From: Jiella mangrovi
GTDB taxonomy: Bacteria; Pseudomonadota; Alphaproteobacteria; Rhizobiales; Rhizobiaceae
NCBI RefSeq assembly: GCF_017815135.1
Contig: NZ_JAGJCF010000015.1
Span: 1-64,000, forward strand
Length of the DNA stretch: 64,000 bases
Direction: 5' to 3'
Shown in pieces: positions 4,585 through 49,976 of the stretch. The number at the start of each line of letters is the position of its first letter. Position 1 is the stretch's first letter. The position numbers and the translations under genes are program-made. The notes beneath the pieces are model-generated. The model had not been told where the DNA came from, ran no database searches, and saw nothing but the letters and a program-made list of their open reading frames with translations.

Positions 4585-5840
4585 CACTCCGCCGGCGTTC
4601 CTTGGCCGGCGAGCCACCGCTGGTCGATCTCGGGCAGGGGATCGCCGTCGATCCTCGCCTCGAAGCCGCGCAGACGCTTGTAGATCGACAGGAGCTCGAC
4701 GATCGTCGTCCAGGAATTCACCAGATACTGGAAGGATGTGCGCACCTGCTCGAAGGCGTTGAGGATCTGGTTCATGATTCCGAGCGTGATCGCGCCGGCG
4801 ATGATCGTCGGCGCAAGGATGATCATCGGGAAGATGACGTCGGTCTGCAGATACGCAAAGCGCGCGACGTTGAAGTACATATAGTGGAAGTACAGCCGGA
4901 AATAGTTTCTCCGCACATGTGAGAACAGTTCGAAGACCGTCGGCGGCTGCGCGCGCGCGGCCGAATCCTCGCCATAGACGAGCTCCTTGCGATAGGCCGC
5001 CTCGACCCGCTGGTTCTTGAACTCCAGCCCGGGCAGCTTGATGCCGACGAGCGCGAGCAGCGCGGTGCCGAAGGCCGCCCAGAGGATTGCCGCGACGACC
5101 AGCGCATAGGGCACGTCGCCGATCAGCGGCAGCTTGGTGATGTGGGCGGACAGGACGACCAGCACCGGCAGGAAGGCGATCAGCGTCATCACCGACTGGA
5201 CGAGGCTGGTGCCCAGATCCTCGGTGGTGGTCGAAAACCGCATCGTGTCTTCCTGGACACGCTGGGAAGCGCCCTCGATGAGCCTCAGCTTCTGCCAGTG
5301 CGACATGTAATAGTCGTTCATCGCCGTTCGCCAGCGGAAGATCCAGTGGCTGACGAAGAAGGCGGTGAGAACGCTGAGCGTCACGCCGACCAGAGCAAGG
5401 CCCGCAAAGGTTTGCATCTCGCCGTAGAACGCGCCGATCGAGACGGGCTTCGTCTTGCCGAGCGCCGCCTGGATGAGATCGTAGAACGGCCCGTACCACG
5501 AATTGACCGCGACCGAGACCTGCACCTGGAAATAGATGGTGAACAGGATGAGGGCCGAGCCGAGGATCGACCAGTTCATCCACGGATGCGGCGCGTAGAA
5601 ACGCCAGAACGCGTAGAAAGGCAGGGTGAAGGCGGCGAAATAGAGGTAGAACCACAGGAAGGGCGGCGACCAGAAGAGCGATATGCCCACCGCCGGCTCC
5701 AGCCCCGGCCCGAAGGGCGGCATGCCGAACTGCGCCCCGAGCTGATCGCCGCCGGCATACCACAGAGCAATGGCGATCGCCGTCCAGACGAGAAGCGACA
5801 GGAAGAACGGTTTCGGCCTGGGAAAGAAGGATACGAACAT
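4584..5840 (-). CDS. bacA: SbmA/BacA-family peptide transporter
   Basis: This is an inner-membrane proton-driven importer of antimicrobial peptides and related substrates. In rhizobia and Brucella BacA is needed for chronic intracellular life and affects very-long-chain fatty acid modification of lipid A. The 418-aa length matches BacA (about 420). Several hydrophobic membrane segments run from residue 12 to about 380, and the family segment [14 protein letters not shown] is present, as is the C-terminal WLAGQG-type end. It stands alone, transcribed away from coaA across a 188-bp gap, with no ATPase domain or partner gene. Confidence 0.93.
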
Positions 5841-6028
5841 CGCTGGCGGCGTCCTTGGCAGCGGGAAGGCCCCATTTCGACCGGAGGGGGTCGCTGGGCT
5901 GTCACCTCCCCTGAATGCTCACCTAAGCTGTAGGTGCCGCTGACGTCTCGTGAAATATCGTTCATCTCTTGCGGCCAGTATCAGGGAAGCAGACCTGAAT
6001 ACGCCGCCGCCGGCCACCGCGGCCTGAC

Positions 6029-41717: not shown

Positions 41718-41950
41718 GACGGTTCCCCGGTCACCACGTGGCAGGGGCGAAGAGGGAATGCGACGGGTCGACCCAAGCCGGGGGCCTTCATCGCAGCCGA
41801 CCCCGCGACTGTAGAGCGGCGAGAGATTCGTCACTGGCCCGGAGCGCTTCAAAACGAGCGAAACGGTGTCCTGAAAGCCACTGGAGAGACCTCCGGGAAG
41901 GCGAGACGCAATTTCGACGACCCGCGAGCCAGGAGACCTGCCGACCTTCC
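41718..41950 (+). promoter_or_regulatory. Cobalamin riboswitch
   Basis: The leader of cbtB carries the conserved core of the adenosylcobalamin riboswitch in the right order: AGGGAATGCGAC at 41752-41763, GCCGACCCCGCGACTGT at 41796-41812, GAAAGCCACTGG at 41873-41884, GGGAAGGCGAG at 41895-41905, and the B12-box-like GAGCCAGGAGACCTGCC at 41926-41942. It ends about 45 bp before the cbtB start, and the GGAGG of cbtB lies just downstream, so control of translation initiation is likely. High cobalamin should turn the operon down. Confidence 0.95.
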
Positions 41951-41993
41951 ATGCACCCGCTGCCCATCCCGGGCGGCCGTCACGGAGGTTGAT

Positions 41994-42170
41994 ATGACGA
42001 CTGATTCGAGAACCGTCGCGCAGGGCGCGACGAATACCCGCTTAGCCGCGGGCTTTTTTGCGCTGTTTCTAGGCGCCTTCTTCGTCTGGGGGGCGGGCTT
42101 TGCCCACTCCGCAGCCCTGCACGACACGGCCCACGACGTGCGCCACGCCTTCGGCTTTCCCTGTCACTGA
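41994..42170 (+). CDS. cbtB: CbtB cobalt transporter subunit
   Basis: A 58-aa membrane protein with one hydrophobic helix (LAAGFFALFLGAFFVWGAGF) and the characteristic C-terminal metal-binding tail LHDTAHDVRHAFGFPCH, rich in His with a final Cys-His. CbtB with CbtA forms a proposed cobalt uptake system under B12 riboswitch control. GGAGG sits six bases before the ATG. It is first in the operon. Being small, it is easily missed by gene finders. Confidence 0.93.
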   Translation: MTTDSRTVAQGATNTRLAAGFFALFLGAFFVWGAGFAHSAALHDTAHDVRHAFGFPCH

Positions 42171-42180
42171 GTTTTCGAGC

Positions 42181-42201
42181 GCCGGCAAGAGGCCGGTTTT
42201 C
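42181..42201 (+). terminator. Weak terminator-like hairpin between cbtB and cbtA
   Basis: CCGGC-AAGAG-GCCGG (42182-42196) followed by TTTTC is a short, 5- to 6-bp stem with a T tract. It could attenuate transcription into cbtA and the cob genes, but the stem is short. Confidence 0.4.
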
Positions 42202-42259
42202 AGGACCAGAATCCACCAGTCAAAGGCCGGCCTTCGCGCCGCCACGGGAAAGCTACACC

Positions 42260-43027
42260 ATGATCATCCGATATCTGCTCGCCGCGCTTGTGGCCGGGCT
42301 TGTCGCCGGCGTTCTCGTGACGCCAATCCAGTACCTCAAGGTCATCCCGCTGATCGCCCATGCCGAAGCCTATGAAAACGGTGGCCATGGCATTGAGCCG
42401 CACGATCATCATCAGGCGGGCCTCGTGTCTTCGGCTCATGCTCACGGCCCGGACGCGTTGGGGAAGGGCCGCGTCATCCTCGCCCATGCTCCGGCGGCCG
42501 GCGGAGGCGAAGACGCGGGCGATGCCAGCCTGTTTCAAAGCCGCGCCCTCGGGACGCTGACGGCGAATGTCGTGACCGGTGGCGGCTTTGCGCTGATGCT
42601 TGCTGCGGTTGCCCTTCTGGCCGGCCGCTCGATCACCACCCGCAACGGTGCGCTCTGGGGGCTTGCCGGCTTTGCCGCCGTGGCGCTTGCGCCCGCGCTC
42701 GGCCTGCCGCCGGAATTGCCGGCGATGCCGGCCGCCGATCTCTCGGCCCGCCAGGCCTGGTGGATCATGACCGTCGGGCTCACGGCAGTCGGTCTCTACT
42801 GCCTCATCCTGCGGCGTGAGGTGCCGCTGCGAGCCCTCGGCGTCGCCCTGCTCGTCGTTCCACATCTCTTCGCCGCGCCTCATCCGGCACAGCTTGCAAG
42901 TCCCATCCCGCCGACGCTGGCGGCGGAATTCGCCGTCGCGTCGCTGGCGACGGGGGCGGCGTTCTGGGTGCTTCTGGGGCTTGGCGTCGGCTTTGCCATG
43001 GATCGCTTCGGGACGAGCGAGGCATGA
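42260..43027 (+). CDS. cbtA: CbtA cobalt transporter
   Basis: A 255-aa inner-membrane protein with about five hydrophobic segments, starting [20 protein letters not shown] His-rich periplasmic or cytoplasmic loop ([18 protein letters not shown], residues 47-64) is a likely metal-binding site. This layout and the pairing with cbtB identify CbtA, predicted to bring in cobalt for B12 synthesis. It overlaps the next gene, cobU, by ATGA. Confidence 0.93.
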
Positions 43028-43554
43028 CGTCGGCGCCGCCAGCGAAGGTCGCCTTCGTCCTTGGCGGCGCCCGCTCCGGCAAGAGCGCCTTTGCCGAGGG
43101 GCTGGTGGGACAAAGCGGTCGTGCCAAGGTCTATGTCGCGACGGGCCGGGCCTTCGACACCGAGATGCAGGCGCGCATTGCCCGCCATCAGGCCGATCGC
43201 GGGGAGGGCTGGACGACGATCGAGGCGCCGCTCGATCTCGTCGGCGCGCTGCGGCGGGAAACCTTGCCGAACCGTATGGTTCTCGTCGATTGCCTGACGC
43301 TCTGGGTGACCAATCTGATGATGGCCGGGAGCGACATCGAGGCTGAATGCGCGGAGCTGATCGACTGCCTTGGCGAAGGTCTGCCAGGGCCTGTCGTCCT
43401 CGTTTCCAACGAGGTCGGCCTCGGCATCGTGCCGGAAAACCGGATGGCGCGAGAATTCCGCGACCATGCCGGCCGGCTGCACCAACAGATCGCGGCGGTG
43501 GCCGAGACGGTCACTTTCGTCGCCGCCGGTCTGCCGATGAAACTCAAGGGTTGA
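43024..43554 (+). CDS. cobU: Adenosylcobinamide kinase / guanylyltransferase
   Basis: A bifunctional enzyme (CobP in aerobic pathway naming) that phosphorylates adenosylcobinamide and then attaches GMP, preparing nucleotide-loop assembly. The 176-aa sequence has the P-loop [14 protein letters not shown] near the N-terminus, the guanylylated-His region ([11 protein letters not shown]), [12 protein letters not shown], and [13 protein letters not shown], all family hallmarks. It is coupled to cbtA by an ATGA overlap. Confidence 0.96.
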
Positions 43555-43600
43555 GCGGAGAAACCGCTCCCCGGACAAGATATAGCAAAAGGAGGCTTTC

Positions 43601-44692
43601 ATGCCCGCCGCCAAAATCCCCGCCACCGTCATCACCGGCTTTCTCGGCGCCGGCAAGACGACGCTGATCCGCAACCTGTTGCAGAATCCCGGCGGCCGCA
43701 AGATCGCGCTGATCATCAACGAGTTCGGCGATCTCGGCGTCGATGGCGACATCCTGAAAGGCTGCGGCATCGAGACCTGCAGCGAGGATGACGTCGTCGA
43801 ACTCAACAATGGCTGCATCTGCTGCACCGTCGCCGACGACTTCATCCCGGCGATGACCAGGCTGCTCGAACGCGACACGCTGCCCGACCACATCATCATC
43901 GAAACCTCGGGACTGGCTTTGCCGCAGCCCCTCGTCGCCGCCTTCAACTGGCCCGAGGTGAAGACCAGGGTCACCGTCGACGGGGTCGTCACGGTGATCG
44001 ACGCGGCGGCGGTTGCGGCCGGGCGCTTTGCCGAGGACGAGGCGAAGGTCGCGGCGCAGCGCGCGGCCGATACGAGCGTCGATCACGACAACCCGCTCGA
44101 AGAGCTGTTCGAGGACCAGATCCGCGCCGCCGATCTCATCGTTCTCAACAAGGCCGATCTCATCGATCGTGACGCGCTGGAGCGTGTGCGCAAGGAGACG
44201 GCGCGCGCCACGCCGCGGACGGTGAAGACCGTCGCCGCCGAGAACGGCAAGCTGCCGGCCGACGTTCTGCTCGGCATCGCCGCCGGCACCGAGGCGCTGA
44301 TCGGCGAGCGCAAGTCCCATCACGAGATCGAGCACGAGGGCGGCGAGGACCACGACCACGACGAGTTCGAGAGCTTCGTTGCCGAAGCCGGGCCGGTCAA
44401 GGATTTGAACGCCTTCGTCGAAGGTCTGAAGGCCTTGATCGGCGAACACGACATCCTGCGGCTGAAGGGCTTTGCCGACGTGCCGGGCAAGCCGATGCGT
44501 CTCGTCGTCCAGGCCGTCGGGCAAAGGATCGAGACCTATTTCGACCGGCCATGGGGCAAGGACGAGACCCGCCAGACAAAGCTCGTCGTCATCGGGCTGC
44601 ATGACGGGCTGACCGACCAGCTTTGCCGGACGATCGCCGGTCGCATCGCGGCGCTCGCGGGAGGTGACAACGCCGCCGAGGCCGCCGAATAG
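43601..44692 (+). CDS. cobW: CobW GTPase, metal chaperone of cobalamin synthesis
   Basis: CobW is a G3E-family GTPase thought to deliver cobalt to the CobNST chelatase. The 363-aa protein has the P-loop GFLGAGKTTL, the metal-binding CxCC motif in NGCICCTV, the GTP-base motif NKAD, and a His/Asp-rich segment (HHEIEHEGGEDHDHDEF) at about residue 240 that could bind extra metal. AAAGGAGG lies upstream of the ATG at 43601. It is followed 10 bp later by cobN. Confidence 0.96.
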   Translation: MPAAKIPATVITGFLGAGKTTLIRNLLQNPGGRKIALIINEFGDLGVDGDILKGCGIETCSEDDVVELNNGCICCTVADDFIPAMTRLLERDTLPDHIIIETSGLALPQPLVAAFNWPEVKTRVTVDGVVTVIDAAAVAAGRFAEDEAKVAAQRAADTSVDHDNPLEELFEDQIRAADLIVLNKADLIDRDALERVRKETARATPRTVKTVAAENGKLPADVLLGIAAGTEALIGERKSHHEIEHEGGEDHDHDEFESFVAEAGPVKDLNAFVEGLKALIGEHDILRLKGFADVPGKPMRLVVQAVGQRIETYFDRPWGKDETRQTKLVVIGLHDGLTDQLCRTIAGRIAALAGGDNAAEAAE

Positions 44693-44702
44693 GGGCGGCG
44701 CA

Positions 44703-47700
44703 TTGCACCTCCTCCTTGCCCAGAAGGGCACGATCGACGACGGCGGCGAGGCGGTGGATCTCGGCCAGTCGCCGGGCGAGATCGTGTTTCTGTCGGCAGC
44801 CGACACCGAGATCGCCTCGCTTGCCTCGGCGGCGCACCGTCTTGCGCTCGGCCCGAGCGAACTGCGTCTGGCGAACCTTCTCCGGCTGAAGCATCCGATG
44901 TCGGTCGACACCTATGTCGAGCGCACGCTTCGCCATGCGCGGCTGGTGGTGGTGCGGCTGCTCGGCGGGCAGGCTTACTGGCCCTATGGTCTCGACGCGC
45001 TGCTTGCCAACGCGCAAGCCTCTGGCGGCAGGCTCGCCGTCATTCCCGGCGACGACAAGCCGGATGCGGGGCTCGATGCCTATACGACGATCCCGCTCGC
45101 AGAGCGCGACCGGCTGTGGCGCTTCCTGATCGAGGGCGGGCCGGCCAATGCCGAGGGGTTTCTGCTCGGCTGCCGGGCGGTGCTGGGGAAGGGAGACTGG
45201 CCGGGCGAGGCGACGCCGTTGTTGAAGGCGGGGGTGGTGCAAATTCGCCGGGATGGCGCAGAGGGGGGTAACGCCGGCAGAAGCGCAGACGGTCCAAGGG
45301 CGGCAATCGGCGACGTTCAACGCGGCGAAAGCGGTTTGGACTGGATCCCGGGTCAAGCCCGGGATGATGAAGCCCGTCGCAAACCCTTGGCAGCCATCGT
45401 CTGCTACCGGGCGCTCGTCCAGAGCGGCCAGACAGAGCCGGTGGAGGCGCTGGCGCAGGCGCTTTGCGAAAGCGGCCTCGACGTTCTGCCGGTCTATGTG
45501 TCCAGCCTGAAAAACCCGGTCTCGATCGAGACCCTGCGCGGCCTCTTCGCTCGCCGGCAGCCTGCCGTGGTGATCAATCTCACCGGCTTTGCCGTCTCAT
45601 CGCCCGCCGCCGCTGCCGGGGCCGAGCGCTTGCCGACGGTTCTGGAGGAAAATGGCGCCGTCGTCCTCCAGGCGGTTCTCGCCTCTGGCTCGAAGGATGC
45701 CTGGCACGCTTCGAGCCAGGGCCTCACCGCCCGCGATCTCGCCATGAACGTCGCCTTGCCGGAGCTCGACGGGCGGGTGCTGTCGCGGGCCATCGCCTTC
45801 AAGTCCGCCGGTGAGTGGGACGCGCTCACCGAAACCGACATCGTCGCCCATCGCCCGGCTTTGGATCGCGTCGCCTTCGTCGCCGAGCTTGCCAGCCGCT
45901 GGGCGCGGCTCGGCGCCAGGCCGAACGCCGACAAGCACGTCGCCATTCTCCTCGCCAACTATCCGAACCGCGATGGCCGGCTCGGCAACGGCGTCGGGCT
46001 CGACACGCCGGCCGGCACCATCGAGGTGCTGAAGGCCATGGAGGCGGCGGGCTATCCGGTCGCCGGAATCCCGGAAACCGGCAACGCCCTGATCGATCAT
46101 CTGATGGCCGGGCCGACCAATGCCGGAACGGTGGCGCGAAAGGTCCGCGAGGCCCTGTCGCTGAAGGACTATCAGGCGTTTTTCGACCAGCTTCCCAAGG
46201 CGATCCGCGACGCCGTGACCGATCGCTGGGGCCCGCCCGCCGACGATCCATTCGTCGGCGTGCACAATGGTAAGCCGGCTTTCGCCCTGCCATTGGCGCG
46301 TTTCGGGCAGACGCTCGTCGGCATTCAGCCGGCACGTGGCTACAATATCGATCCGAAGGAGACCTACCACTCGCCGGACCTCGCGCCGCCCCACAACTAT
46401 CTGGCGCTCTACGCCTTCCTGCGGTCGGATTATGGGGCCGACGCCGTCATCCACATGGGCAAGCACGGCAATCTGGAATGGCTGCCGGGCAAGGCGCTGG
46501 CGCTTTCCGATAGCTGTTTTCCCGAGGCCGTCTTCGGCCCCGTGCCGCATCTTTATCCCTTCATCGTCAACGATCCCGGCGAGGGGACGCAGGCCAAGCG
46601 CCGGACCTCGGCCGTCATTGTCGACCACCTGACGCCGCCTTTGACCCGGGCCGAGACCTACGGGCCGCTGAAGGATCTCGAAGCCCTCGTCGATGAATAT
46701 TACGAAGCGGCCGGCGGCGATCCGCGCCGGCTGGTCATGCTCAAGAGCCAGATCCTTGATCTCGTGACCGACATCGGCCTCGATCATGACGCGGGCATCG
46801 CGGCCGGCGAGGGCGAGGAGACGGCGCTGGAAAAGCTCGACGCCTATCTCTGCGAATTGAAGGAAATGCAGATCCGCGACGGGCTGCATGTTTTCGGCGT
46901 CGCGCCCGAGGGGCGGCTCTTGACGGACCTCGTCGTGGCGCTGGCGCGGCTGCCGCGCGGGAGCGGGGCGGGGGACGCCTCGCTGTTGCGGGCGCTGGCG
47001 GAGGATCTGGGGCTTTGTGGTTCGGCAGGCGATCGCGGCGGCGGGCACCCCCCTCTGGCTTGCCAGCCATCTCCCCCACAAGGGGGGAGATCAGGCGGGG
47101 GGGACGGCGACGCGGATCCTGAAGCGTCTTCGCTCGCCACAGCGGTCGATCGAGAGGGGAACAGCGTCGAACGAGGTTCGATCTCCCCCCTCGTGGGGGA
47201 GATGTCCGGCAGGACAGAGGGGGGCGCATCGGGGCGCGACATTGCAACGGATCACGCTGCATCGCGCCAGGCAGACGTCCCTCCCTTCGACCCCCTCGAC
47301 TGCGACATGGCGGCGCCCTGGACGGGCGCTCGTCCACAGCTTCTCGCCAGCCTGTCCCCAGACCCGTGGCGCACGACCGGCGACACCGTCGAGCGGCTGG
47401 AGCTTCTGGCTGCCAGACTGGTCGAAGGCGAATCTCACCCGGATATCCACTGGCGATCCACACGAGCCGTGCTCGAGGCGATTGAAACCACGCTGAAGCC
47501 TGCCGTCACCCGTTCCGGTCCGGCCGAGATCGGTGGCATCCTCGCCGGCCTTGCCGGACGCTTCGTTGCGCCCGGCCCGTCCGGCGCGCCGACGCGGGGG
47601 CGGCCCGACGTCTTGCCGACGGGGCGCAACTTCTTTTCCGTCGATACCAGAGCGGTGCCGACCGAGACGGCCTATCGCCTGGGGAAGAAGTCCGCCGAGC

Positions 47701-48815
47701 TTCTCGTCACGCGCCATCTGCAGGACCATGGCGAATGGCCGACCTCGCTCGGGCTGACGGCCTGGGGCACCTCCAACATGCGCACCGGTGGCGACGACAT
47801 CGCCCAGGCGCTGGCGCTGATCGGCGCAAGGCCTGTCTGGGACCGGGCCTCGCGGCGGGTGACGGGCTACGAGATCGTGACGCTGGCCGAACTCGGCCGG
47901 CCGCGCGTCGACGTCACCTTGCGCATTTCCGGCTTTTTCCGCGATGCCTTTCCGGACCAGATCGCCCTTTACGACAGGGCGATCCGGGCCGTCGGCGCGC
48001 TGGATGAGGACGCGGAGGACAATCCGATCGCCGCCAGAATGCGGGCCGAAAAGGCGGCGCTGATCGAAACGGGCGTCGCCGAGGCCGAGGCCCAAAAGCG
48101 CGCCGGCTTCCGCATCTTCGGTTCGAAGCCGGGCGCCTATGGCGCGGGGCTGCAGGCGCTGATCGACGAAAAGGGCTGGGACGACAAGGCCGATCTCGCG
48201 GAGAGCTATCTTGTCTGGGGCTCTTATGCCTATGGGGCGGAGACCGAGGGCGCGGCCGAGCGGGACCGTTTCGAGGCGCGGCTTTCGGGCATCGAGGCCG
48301 TCGTCCAGAATCAGGACAATCGCGAGCACGACCTTCTCGATTCCGACGACTACTACCAGTTCGAAGGCGGCATGACGGCGGCCGTGGAGCATCTCTCGGG
48401 CGCGCGGCCGGTGGTCTATCACAACGATCATTCGCGGCCCGAGCGCCCGGTGGTGCGCACGCTGGAAGAGGAGATCGGCCGGGTGGTGCGGGCGCGCGTC
48501 GTCAATCCGAAATGGATCGCCGGCGTCATGCGCCACGGCTACAAGGGCGCCTTCGAGATCGCCGCGACGCTCGACTACATGTTCGCCTTCGCCGCGACGA
48601 CCGGCGCGGTGCGTGACCATCATTTCGAGGCGGCCTGGAACGCGTTCGTGATGGACGACGAGGTGCGCGATTTTCTCGAGGCGAACAATCCGGCCGCGCT
48701 CGCCGAGATCCGGGATCGATTCGCCGAGGCGATCGACCGCGGCTTGTGGAGCCCGCGATCGAATTCGGCCCGCGCCGAACTGGCGGCGCAAGCCGAGCAC
48801 GAGGTCGGGGCTTGA
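44703..48815 (+). CDS. cobN: CobN, large subunit of cobaltochelatase, with in-frame repeat insertions
   Basis: CobN, with CobS and CobT, inserts cobalt into hydrogenobyrinic acid a,c-diamide. The TTG at 44703 gives the family start (HLLLAQKGTI) with AGGGG 7 bases upstream. Conserved blocks are RALVQSGQTEPVEAL, IHMGKHGNLEWLPGKALALS, TGRNFFSVDTRAVPTETAY and EGGMTAAVEHLSGARPVVY. At 1370 aa it is about 100 residues longer than usual. The excess falls in two places that do not look like CobN: about residues 180-225 (45240-45385) and 770-862 (47020-47285). Both contain palindromic repeats translated in frame. cobS and cobT are not in the window. Confidence 0.96.
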   Translation: MHLLLAQKGTIDDGGEAVDLGQSPGEIVFLSAADTEIASLASAAHRLALGPSELRLANLLRLKHPMSVDTYVERTLRHARLVVVRLLGGQAYWPYGLDALLANAQASGGRLAVIPGDDKPDAGLDAYTTIPLAERDRLWRFLIEGGPANAEGFLLGCRAVLGKGDWPGEATPLLKAGVVQIRRDGAEGGNAGRSADGPRAAIGDVQRGESGLDWIPGQARDDEARRKPLAAIVCYRALVQSGQTEPVEALAQALCESGLDVLPVYVSSLKNPVSIETLRGLFARRQPAVVINLTGFAVSSPAAAAGAERLPTVLEENGAVVLQAVLASGSKDAWHASSQGLTARDLAMNVALPELDGRVLSRAIAFKSAGEWDALTETDIVAHRPALDRVAFVAELASRWARLGARPNADKHVAILLANYPNRDGRLGNGVGLDTPAGTIEVLKAMEAAGYPVAGIPETGNALIDHLMAGPTNAGTVARKVREALSLKDYQAFFDQLPKAIRDAVTDRWGPPADDPFVGVHNGKPAFALPLARFGQTLVGIQPARGYNIDPKETYHSPDLAPPHNYLALYAFLRSDYGADAVIHMGKHGNLEWLPGKALALSDSCFPEAVFGPVPHLYPFIVNDPGEGTQAKRRTSAVIVDHLTPPLTRAETYGPLKDLEALVDEYYEAAGGDPRRLVMLKSQILDLVTDIGLDHDAGIAAGEGEETALEKLDAYLCELKEMQIRDGLHVFGVAPEGRLLTDLVVALARLPRGSGAGDASLLRALAEDLGLCGSAGDRGGGHPPLACQPSPPQGGRSGGGDGDADPEASSLATAVDREGNSVERGSISPLVGEMSGRTEGGASGRDIATDHAASRQADVPPFDPLDCDMAAPWTGARPQLLASLSPDPWRTTGDTVERLELLAARLVEGESHPDIHWRSTRAVLEAIETTLKPAVTRSGPAEIGGILAGLAGRFVAPGPSGAPTRGRPDVLPTGRNFFSVDTRAVPTETAYRLGKKSAELLVTRHLQDHGEWPTSLGLTAWGTSNMRTGGDDIAQALALIGARPVWDRASRRVTGYEIVTLAELGRPRVDVTLRISGFFRDAFPDQIALYDRAIRAVGALDEDAEDNPIAARMRAEKAALIETGVAEAEAQKRAGFRIFGSKPGAYGAGLQALIDEKGWDDKADLAESYLVWGSYAYGAETEGAAERDRFEARLSGIEAVVQNQDNREHDLLDSDDYYQFEGGMTAAVEHLSGARPVVYHNDHSRPERPVVRTLEEEIGRVVRARVVNPKWIAGVMRHGYKGAFEIAATLDYMFAFAATTGAVRDHHFEAAWNAFVMDDEVRDFLEANNPAALAEIRDRFAEAIDRGLWSPRSNSARAELAAQAEHEVGA
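45341..45369. repeat. Palindromic repeat inserted in frame in cobN (first site)
   Basis: ATCCCGGG-TCAAG-CCCGGGAT (45345-45365) forms an 8-bp hairpin flanked by CTGG before and GATGA after. The skeleton (TGGAT, CGGG, loop, CCCG, ATGA) parallels the REP unit at 135-164, so it may be a related family. It is translated as DWIPGQARDDEARRK. The surrounding 45240-45385 also lacks CobN similarity. Confidence 0.85.
47047..47225. repeat. Inverted pair of palindromic repeats inserted in frame in cobN (second site)
   Basis: Copy A (47047-47092) and copy B (47180-47225) are inverted relative to each other and share CCCCCTCTG at the outer ends and ATCTCCCCCAC(A/G)AGG inside. Each folds alone into a hairpin, and the two could pair over about 45 bp around an 85-bp centre. 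Copy B is translated as SISPLVGEMSGRTEGGA, a peptide that recurs wherever this rhizobial repeat is read in frame. Confidence 0.85.
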
Positions 48816-48846
48816 AGCCTTGCCAAGTTCGGCTCATGACACCGCC

Positions 48847-49329
48847 ATGACCATCAACGTGACGACACAGACCCCCGCCTTGCCGACCATCCAGCACCTG
48901 GACCATCCGGGGCCGGATCTGAGATCGCGCATCGTCGCGCCGCTTGCCGAATTCTCGACCAAGAAAGACTTCGCCTTCGCGCCGCAATTCGTGACGCTGG
49001 GGCTTCAGACCGAGGATGGCATCGACGGCGGGCTCGCCTGTCAGCTCTACTGGGACTGGATGCATATCGAGATTCTCGCCGTGCCGGAACGCTGGCGTGG
49101 GCTCGGCCTTGGCCGCGCCCTGGTCGAGCGGGCCGAGGCGATCGCTCGCGAGGCGGGCTGCACGGGCGTCTGGGTCGATACCTATTCCTTCCAGTCGCCG
49201 GGCTTTTATGCAGCGATGGGCTATGCGCCCTTCGGCCGCCTGCCCAACTATCCGAAGGGCGAGACGCGGATCTTCTTCGCGAAGCTCTTCGACGAGGATT
49301 TCCTGTCACCACCGGAGAAGGCTGCATGA
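48847..49329 (+). CDS. GNAT-family acetyltransferase inside the cobalamin operon
   Basis: A 160-aa acetyltransferase with the acetyl-CoA-binding loop RWRGLGLGRALVERAEAIA and the later SFQSPGFYAAMGYAPFG typical of GNAT proteins. The substrate is unknown. It lies between cobN and cobO and overlaps cobO by ATGA, so it is part of the riboswitch-led transcript; a role in cobalamin metabolism is suggested only by position. ATG 48847 is preferred over the upstream GTG 48820. Confidence 0.88.
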   Translation: MTINVTTQTPALPTIQHLDHPGPDLRSRIVAPLAEFSTKKDFAFAPQFVTLGLQTEDGIDGGLACQLYWDWMHIEILAVPERWRGLGLGRALVERAEAIAREAGCTGVWVDTYSFQSPGFYAAMGYAPFGRLPNYPKGETRIFFAKLFDEDFLSPPEKAA

Positions 49330-49976
49330 GCGACGAGACGCCCGAGCGCGGCAAGATTACCGACGGCATGAGCGAAGACGAACTCAACGCCCGCCACGCC
49401 GAGAAGATGAAGAAGAAGAAGGCGGCGCGCGACAAGATCCTCGCGACGAAGACGATCGAGAAGGGGCTCCTGATCGTCCATACCGGCAAGGGCAAGGGCA
49501 AGTCGACGGCGGCCTTCGGCCTCGTCTTCCGGGCGCTCGGCAACGGCATGAAGGTCGGCGTCGTGCAGTTCGTCAAGGGCAAGTGGGAAACTGGCGAGCG
49601 CAAGATCCTCGAGCATTTTCCCGATCAGGTGACGATGACGGCGATGGGCGACGGCTTCACCTGGGAGACCCAGGACCGCCAGCGCGACATCGCCGCCGCC
49701 AAAGCTGCCTGGGAGCGAGCGCAGGCGATGATCATGGATGACGAGCATGATCTCGTCCTGCTTGACGAGATGAACATCGTCCTGCGCTACGACTATCTCG
49801 ACATTGCCGAGGTGGTAGCGTTCCTGAAAGATAAGCCAGCGAACAAGCATGTCGTCGTCACCGGCCGCAACGCCAAGGACGAGCTGATCGATCTGGCCGA
49901 TCTCGTCACCGAGATGGAGATGATCAAGCACCCCTTCCGTTCCGGCGTGAAGGCGCAGAAGGGAATCGAGTTCTGA
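49326..49976 (+). CDS. cobO: Cob(I)yrinic acid a,c-diamide adenosyltransferase
   Basis: CobO transfers the adenosyl group of ATP to the cobalt of corrinoids. The 216-aa protein has the family P-loop VHTGKGKGKSTAAFG, the Walker-B-like LVLLDEMNIVLRYDYLD, and the C-terminal MEMIKHPFRSGVKAQKGIEF end. A Lys-rich N-terminal extension (residues 1-45) precedes the core, as in rhizobial CobO. It is the last gene of the operon. Confidence 0.97.
   Translation: MSDETPERGKITDGMSEDELNARHAEKMKKKKAARDKILATKTIEKGLLIVHTGKGKGKSTAAFGLVFRALGNGMKVGVVQFVKGKWETGERKILEHFPDQVTMTAMGDGFTWETQDRQRDIAAAKAAWERAQAMIMDDEHDLVLLDEMNIVLRYDYLDIAEVVAFLKDKPANKHVVVTGRNAKDELIDLADLVTEMEMIKHPFRSGVKAQKGIEF

Follow-up and report, generated by a model that had tools for sequence, protein, structure and literature searches.

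Three kinds of palindromic element described previously come closest to the repeats analyzed here, and what is said of them below draws on parts of the sources cited. Intragenic REPs of the CGTC and GTAG types occur in several species, more than half of them as dimers or groups, and many lie in genes for DNA synthesis and repair; two Xanthomonas recB genes carry different REPs at about the same site (portions of PMC3733652). In the same portions, CGTC REPs are characterized by an 8- to 9-bp stem starting with AT, a 4- to 5-nt loop, and a CCA tail, and their transposase is given as not known. Rickettsia palindromic elements (RPE) are palindromic, dispersed, and located in frame in conserved genes (portions of PMC3733652 and PMC2229807). 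REPINs are inverted REP doublets that form hairpins, have a spacing of 71 or 110 bp and a less conserved spacer, are extragenic, and are tied to RAYT transposases (portions of PMC3116915). Judging from these portions, the earlier basis for mobile palindromes adding to working proteins was the Rickettsia elements together with scattered intragenic REPs.

We analyzed elements of this kind in cobN of Jiella mangrovi and its relatives. The window is the whole stretch of DNA analyzed (64,000 nt, positions 1 to 64,000 of contig NZ_JAGJCF010000015.1), and coordinates given without a locus name are positions in it. The cobN elements, which belong to families A to D defined below, resemble RPE as described in those portions in that they are in frame in conserved genes and also have intergenic copies. 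They differ in that they are found in other bacteria and at recurrent sites in one gene, and the likeness is drawn from descriptions of RPE. The family B arm (ATCCCGGG, a 5-nt loop, and CCCGGGAT, in which TGG is CCA on the other strand) has the stem, loop, and tail features that portions of PMC3733652 give for CGTC REPs, and inverted dimers are frequent in the genome, a comparison made without the head-to-head naming of that paper. Family A arms, which start with GATCTCCCCC and end with AGAGGGGGG, do not have the CGTC or GTAG tag. Family A pairs are like the REPINs of PMC3116915, as far as it is drawn on here, in being inverted, with a favored spacing of mostly ~110 and an unconserved spacer, but some of them lie in genes, and no RAYT linked to the arms was found in the J. 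mangrovi genome, so these elements can be said to work like REPINs, not to be REPINs. Compared with the intragenic REPs in the portions of PMC3733652 used here, the present case concerns two positions of one metabolic enzyme, repeatedly filled by at least four families within one bacterial family. The main text of PMC3733652 mentions neither cobN nor cobaltochelatase. In the literature on cobN, on intragenic palindromes, and on rhizobial REPIN/RIME elements, with most subscription papers and the supplement of PMC3733652 outside the scope, we found no recurrent CobN hotspot, although an earlier mention of cobN as a REP target may exist. Palindromic elements that lie in frame have been described before (Rickettsia, intragenic REPs); a recurrent hotspot for them in CobN is apparently new in the literature searched.

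Two excess segments in J. mangrovi CobN

In the open reading frame list, the cobN frame runs from a GTG at 44664 to 48815 (1383 aa), and homology suggests a TTG start at 44703, which gives a CobN of 1370 aa. In a profile search, residues 1 to 1362 align with positions 1 to 1219 of the TIGR02257 model, an excess of ~140 residues. As judged from the alignment with relatives, the bulk of this excess is in two places, site 1 and site 2, where the shortest relatives have far fewer codons than J. mangrovi. The features are as follows.

44703 to 48815 (open frame from 44664), plus strand: cobN, cobaltochelatase subunit CobN; TIGR02257 1637.5 bits, PF02514 1260.3 bits; TTG start by homology to MHLLLAQKG
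45234 to 45383, plus strand: site 1 excess segment of 50 codons, flanked by KAG and PLAAIVCYRAL, from alignment with relatives
45250 to 45269, plus strand: possible family A tail remnant (GCAGAGGGGGGT) in site 1, a fuzzy match with 4 errors, weak because equally loose tails also occur six times in 264 kb of the rest of cobN
45341 to 45367, plus strand: family B arm in site 1, a CGTC-type palindrome with an 8-bp stem and a 5-nt loop, read LDWIPGQARDD
47016 to 47285, plus strand: site 2 excess segment of 90 codons, flanked by EDLGL and FDPLDCDMAAPW, from alignment with relatives
47045 to 47092, minus strand: family A left arm, inverted, read HPPLACQPSPPQGGRS
47093 to 47179, plus strand: spacer between the family A arms, unconserved among genome copies
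47180 to 47227, plus strand: family A right arm, read ISPLVGEMSGRTEGG

The site 1 palindrome is ATCCCGGG-TCAAG-CCCGGGAT, read DWIPGQARDDEAR. The site 2 arms are 48 nt each, 88% complementary, and separated by 87 nt. The RNA of 47040 to 47232 is predicted to fold at -122 kcal/mol (z of -7.4; 0 of 200 shuffles equally good), and the site 1 hairpin is unremarkable (z of -2.0; 8 of 200 shuffles as good). The original prediction placed palindromic repeats in both segments; segment 2 contains a full inverted pair, and segment 1 contains one arm instead of a pair. Two Rfam matches to known structured RNA, both outside the two sites, are at chance level and far under gathering scores. The only Pfam model that matches CobN is CobN itself.

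The closest CobN relatives are from Jiella, Aurantimonas, and one Fulvimarina MAG (80 to 82% in the best segment), and identity to CobN of locus L080 is 86% over core columns. Both sites coincide with small gaps in an alignment to M. tuberculosis CobN (7c6o). Within 41950 to 49976 of the window, the frames upstream of cobN are presumably cbtB/cbtA-like, cobP/cobU-like, and cobW-like, and those downstream we take to be an acetyltransferase-like frame and a cobO-like frame.

Palindrome families in the J. mangrovi genome

At ≤3 mismatches, the family B 27-mer is found at 34 places in the 4.93-Mb genome and the family A right-arm 46-mer at 32 places, and backwards controls gave 0 in both cases. 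A looser family A core pattern gives at least 98 matches per strand, with most arms counted on both strands. In 409 kb read around the listed copies there are 79 element clusters, many of which are inverted pairs ~110 bp apart. At least 8 of the 79 clusters lie in frame inside conserved genes, the genes hit being cobN (twice), glyS, pcrA, bchB, the gene for ATP-dependent DNA ligase, the linker of the lipoyl E2 gene, and the C-terminal tail of uvrB. In the pcrA/uvrD helicase gene (G000:C3:55899-58829, L139), a family A pair separates helicase motifs II and III, and bchB (protochlorophyllide reductase subunit B; G000:C23:385699-387612, L176) has an in-frame family A pair; the genome accordingly has at least one bacteriochlorophyll gene. 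One arm pair straddles a permease/ATPase junction. Three more open frames across arms were judged spurious.

The second stem of family A occurs in paired variants (GTCC/GGAC, GCCC/GGGC, GGGC/GCCC, and GGCT/AGCC); this stem is complete, with four pairs, in 61 of 95 arms, and among the others 29 share one identical 3-bp form. The 37 inverted family A pairs all have a single orientation and a spacing of mostly ~110, and their spacers are mutually unrelated (2 of 666 spacer pairs alike). Inverted pairs ~100 to 140 bp apart are common among family B clusters, and the site 1 copy in cobN is single. An arm-flanked RAYT transposase was not found in the genome. The single Y1 (HUH) transposase match (G000:C3:83276-83602, L138) has an internal TGA, and the 3.3 kb around it contain no A or B arms.

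The two sites in related cobN genes

Among 77 named cobN loci, the 73 with an open frame of >1100 aa were aligned with J. mangrovi cobN, for a total of 74 genes. Four were dropped before alignment: L099 is cut by a contig end, L105 has two breaks outside the sites, L130 is broken just past site 2, and L092 is broken near the start and inside both inserts. L075, which is shifted inside the site 1 insert, was retained from its second frame. The big length differences in the 74 genes map to the same two sites, except for N-terminal extensions of stop-to-stop frames and three spots of 22 to 40 aa in Rhodobacterales. Inserts at both sites are built from at least four palindrome families.

Family A: site 2 in J. 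mangrovi cobN
Family B: CGTC-type; site 1 in J. mangrovi cobN
Family C: CCCCTCCC...GGGGAGGGG; Rhizobium site 2
Family D: TTCTCCCC...GGGGAGAAG; Rhizobium site 1 and Aurantimonadaceae site 2

The 30,774 nt of the two sites contain 109 arms (A/B/C/D, 71/11/15/12), compared with 0/3/0/0 in 264,297 nt elsewhere in the 74 genes. At ≤4 errors, the sites contain 105 arms (70/10/13/12) and the rest contains a single one, in L077 and upstream of its start; the other two B arms outside the sites have 6 errors each. An arm at ≤4 errors is present in 31 of the 74 genes. Loose family A tail matches number 84 in the sites and 6 in the rest. In place of the CGTC tag, the J. mangrovi site 1 arm has CATC, and its relatives L061 and L067 have CGTC.

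Several elements stand in tandem at one site in L120 and L065, and a hairpin is nested within arms of L069, L073, and L120. The nested palindrome in these three loci (approximately GGGGNCGAGCC...GTCCTNCGGACCCC) lies in A and C arms and keeps the frame, and the L219 peptide suggests one more nested case. At site 1 of L256, L236, and L218 there are further peptide families (SPRLRGEGARRADEG, HPEVRAKRASKGEG, and PLTPALSPQAGRG), which suggests that there are more than four repeat families.

There is no insert in 49 of the 74 genes at site 1 and in 44 of the 74 at site 2, and many of these genes are from close relatives. On a tree made from CobN outside the sites by a quick method (LG+G4; 23 of 71 inner branches weak), insert class changes no fewer than 18 times at site 1 and no fewer than 16 times at site 2, and insert presence changes at least 11 and at least 10 times, counts in which gain is indistinguishable from loss. 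The sisters L078 and L101, for example, have family D and family A, respectively, at site 1.

Even draw of genomes and control regions

Because a CobN with inserts was used to find the named loci, the share of inserts among them is biased, a problem that an even draw of 111 genomes over the family answers. Of these, 59 have CobN at an E value of ≤1e-100, including J. mangrovi itself, and the 58 others were counted; the draw overlaps the named set in at least 6 genomes. A site of ≥50 aa is found in 17 of the 58, both sites are long in 11, and 16 of the 17 contain one or more hairpins of ≥7 bp in a site. Hairpins occur at 4.0 per kb in the sites, compared with 0.66 per kb in the rest. The stop-to-stop frames of the 41 short-site relatives are 1233 to 1288 aa in 36 and 1322 to 1664 aa in five, and element-free sites still vary in length (21 to 47 and 21 to 42 aa). 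Thirty further loci were used for position only.

Family A core matches are concentrated in cobN, with 73 of 1491 in the even draw (1.24 expected by length) and 111 of 2083 in 48 named genomes (1.62 expected); matches were mostly counted once per strand, so that arms are about half as many. Long sites occur in 14 of 24 even-draw genomes with ≥6 A matches and in 3 of the 34 others (Fisher p of 7.5e-5, kinship ignored). The other 10 of the 24 have short sites, including G368 with 150 matches. Among the named genomes, A is present in cobN in 20 of 27 with ≥6 matches, 0 of 3 with 1 to 5, and 0 of 18 with none. In G445, cobN accounts for 4 of 5 A matches, equivalent to 2 of its 3 arms, and G454 has 2 of its 4 arms there; the pattern misses or merges subfamilies in these two genomes, and diverged subfamilies are undercounted. 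For family D, the matches listed, which are pieces on both strands, number at least 65 to 117 in four Rhizobium genomes, 14 (all weak) in the genome of L102, and 0 in that of L113, whose cobN is clean.

In the 3 kb on each side of cobN at 73 loci, the upstream side (207 kb) has 16 arms and the downstream side (216 kb) has 3, compared with 102 in 291 kb of cobN. On these flank counts we rejected a hot genomic locus. As a control gene we used pcrA, which was picked because it is hit in the J. mangrovi genome. In the same 58 even-draw genomes, arms are found in pcrA in 5 and in cobN in 15. The pcrA loop is 23 to 119 aa in relatives, and its arms are from A, C, or D. Since pcrA is hit too, hotspots seem to be a trait of tolerant linkers, and cobN is the stronger hotspot of these two genes; given the difference in frequency, tolerance by itself may be insufficient to account for the preference for cobN.

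Reading frames and selection

The consensus family A arm is open in all six frames. The ISPLVGEM... frame is used by 34 of 35 right arms in the named loci and by 21 of 23 in the even draw, where the two exceptions, L218 and L234, use the two other frames. Left arms by frame are 17/16/0 and 9/7/0, respectively. All these counts are inflated by relatedness and by the overlap of the two sets. We take the right-arm bias to reflect selection against the two remaining frames, each of which contains Cys, although Cys is also present in one of the two frames in which left arms are read.

Same-family inserts have dN/dS values of 0.41 to 1.15, compared with 0.06 to 0.20 for the core, which indicates that the inserts are under relaxed selection, though their values are mostly <1. 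This comparison leaves out different-family pairs (L070/L071 at site 2; L073/L112, L078/L101, and J. mangrovi/L076 at site 1), mixed or remnant pairs at site 1 (J. mangrovi/L061 and L070/L079), and very short inserts. The 54-codon D insert at site 1 of L072 and L078 has 0 synonymous and 6 nonsynonymous differences, while the cores have 255 synonymous differences in 890 codons, which suggests a recent arrival or exchange of the insert. Insert peptides are rich in G (14.6%), P (11.8%), S (11.1%), and E (9.1%) and poor in L, F, and Y.

One frame is open across both sites in 72 of the 77 named loci. In the J. mangrovi genome, 21 of 34 noncoding A pairs would likewise have an uninterrupted ISP frame on their own, which makes an open frame no more than moderate evidence for translation. 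The length differences between filled and empty sites are multiples of 3, but this adds no evidence, as it is bound to happen when both genes are in frame and the cuts are placed at codons. In Rhizobium sp. CCGE 510 (L075:3490-3840) there is a frameshift inside the site 1 insert. In Rhizobium sp. G21 (L092:3480-3830 and 5290-5640) the gene is out of frame through the site 1 insert, and its site 2 spacer contains stop codons; a further break near the start of L092 makes sequencing error likely for this locus. Both breaks could be homopolymer errors; if they are real, insertions sometimes break cobN. The complete Jiella pelagia genome (L105:3950-4080 and 5700-5900) has a cobN with two frame breaks away from both sites.

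Discussion

The arms at the two sites of CobN are dispersed repeats, and the same two positions receive at least four families in many genera. The elements there turn over, stack, nest, and decay, and one open frame is kept in most relatives. The original prediction that palindromic repeats found genome-wide were inserted in frame is supported by the copy counts, the empty sites in relatives, and the turnover of families; the frame across both sites of J. mangrovi cobN is intact, as had been proposed. A recurrent hotspot across genera and repeat families is beyond that one-gene observation. We consider it very likely that REPIN-like elements, with inverted hairpin arms and an unconserved spacer and by now partly decayed, were inserted at two indel-tolerant positions of CobN, where they settle and turn over.

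Palindromic elements would enter coding DNA and be lost nearly everywhere in cobN, and in-frame copies would persist at the two indel-tolerant positions, gain neighbors, and decay. Both positions may fill because an in-frame insertion there costs little, with insertions elsewhere in cobN purged. Mobility probably comes from an enzyme that acts on hairpin DNA in trans, and resident elements may serve as landing sites for further elements. Spacers are not homologous, so whole-element transposition is not directly seen. The segments would be translated as flexible surface loops, with activity kept, although they may instead be removed at the RNA level. A surface position has indirect support from the small gaps at both sites in the alignment to 7c6o and from the varying length of element-free sites.

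That the segments are genuine CobN domains inherited by descent, with incidental palindromes, is scarcely credible. Alike peptides are indeed found in Jiella, Aurantimonas, Rhizobium, and Ensifer, and a B arm with like flanks in J. mangrovi, L061, L065, and L087 points to some inheritance. However, the same DNA is dispersed through genomes, left arms are read in two frames, and the sisters L078 and L101 have different families at site 1. We rejected the domain reading because arms are confined to the sites, CobN itself is the sole Pfam match, and families turn over on the tree. The original prediction took similar residues in distant CobN as the mark of a domain. Such residues do exist (ISPLVGEMSGRTEGG in Rhizobium and Ensifer), but they are the same DNA repeat, with clean genes between, so residue similarity fails to discriminate a domain from an insertion. 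The probability of an assembly or annotation artifact is close to nil: homopolymer-rich arms can give sequencing errors, and the L075 and L092 breaks are inside inserts, but ~30 named and 17 even-draw assemblies, two sets with some overlap, have inserts with an open frame at these sites. It is very unlikely that the insertion machinery recognizes DNA at both sites, even though only two sites are in use, given that at least four families with different arms share them, that junctions seem by eye to vary between genera, and that in pcrA and other genes the arms lie in linkers of those genes.

A use for the inserts, as flexible loops for CobN motion or CobST binding or as mRNA hairpins that pace translation, would be consistent with A matches in cobN 59- to 68-fold above the length expectation, the strongly preferred right-arm frame, the highly stable fold at site 2, dN/dS values mostly <1, and the lack of synonymous changes in some inserts where the core predicts several (L072/L078 site 1). 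We nevertheless find it improbable that inserts are kept for such a use: they are absent from so many genes, including many from close relatives, their content, length, and family change freely, their dN/dS is far above that of the core, and the solved CobN 9uk9 is only 1263 aa. It is also improbable that the CobN loops are a preferred refuge and not merely tolerant, most palindrome-hosting lineages keeping copies in cobN even where there are few arms elsewhere. The insertion machinery would then favor cobN, or inserted peptides or mRNA hairpins would be selected, for example, by pacing synthesis of a very large enzyme.

With insertion and turnover of REPIN-like elements as the preferred explanation, cobN provides, at two fixed positions, dozens of naturally occurring states (filled, empty, nested, or decayed), which allows direct measurement of insertion cost, benefit, frame choice, and turnover. 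It also calls for caution, since peptides that recur in rhizobial proteins can stem from repeat DNA instead of being conserved domains. In cobN, which encodes the cobalt-inserting enzyme for the synthesis of vitamin B12, nature has left a clear record of how repeat DNA enters a working protein; as far as the reading frames tell, the inserts appear to be translated.
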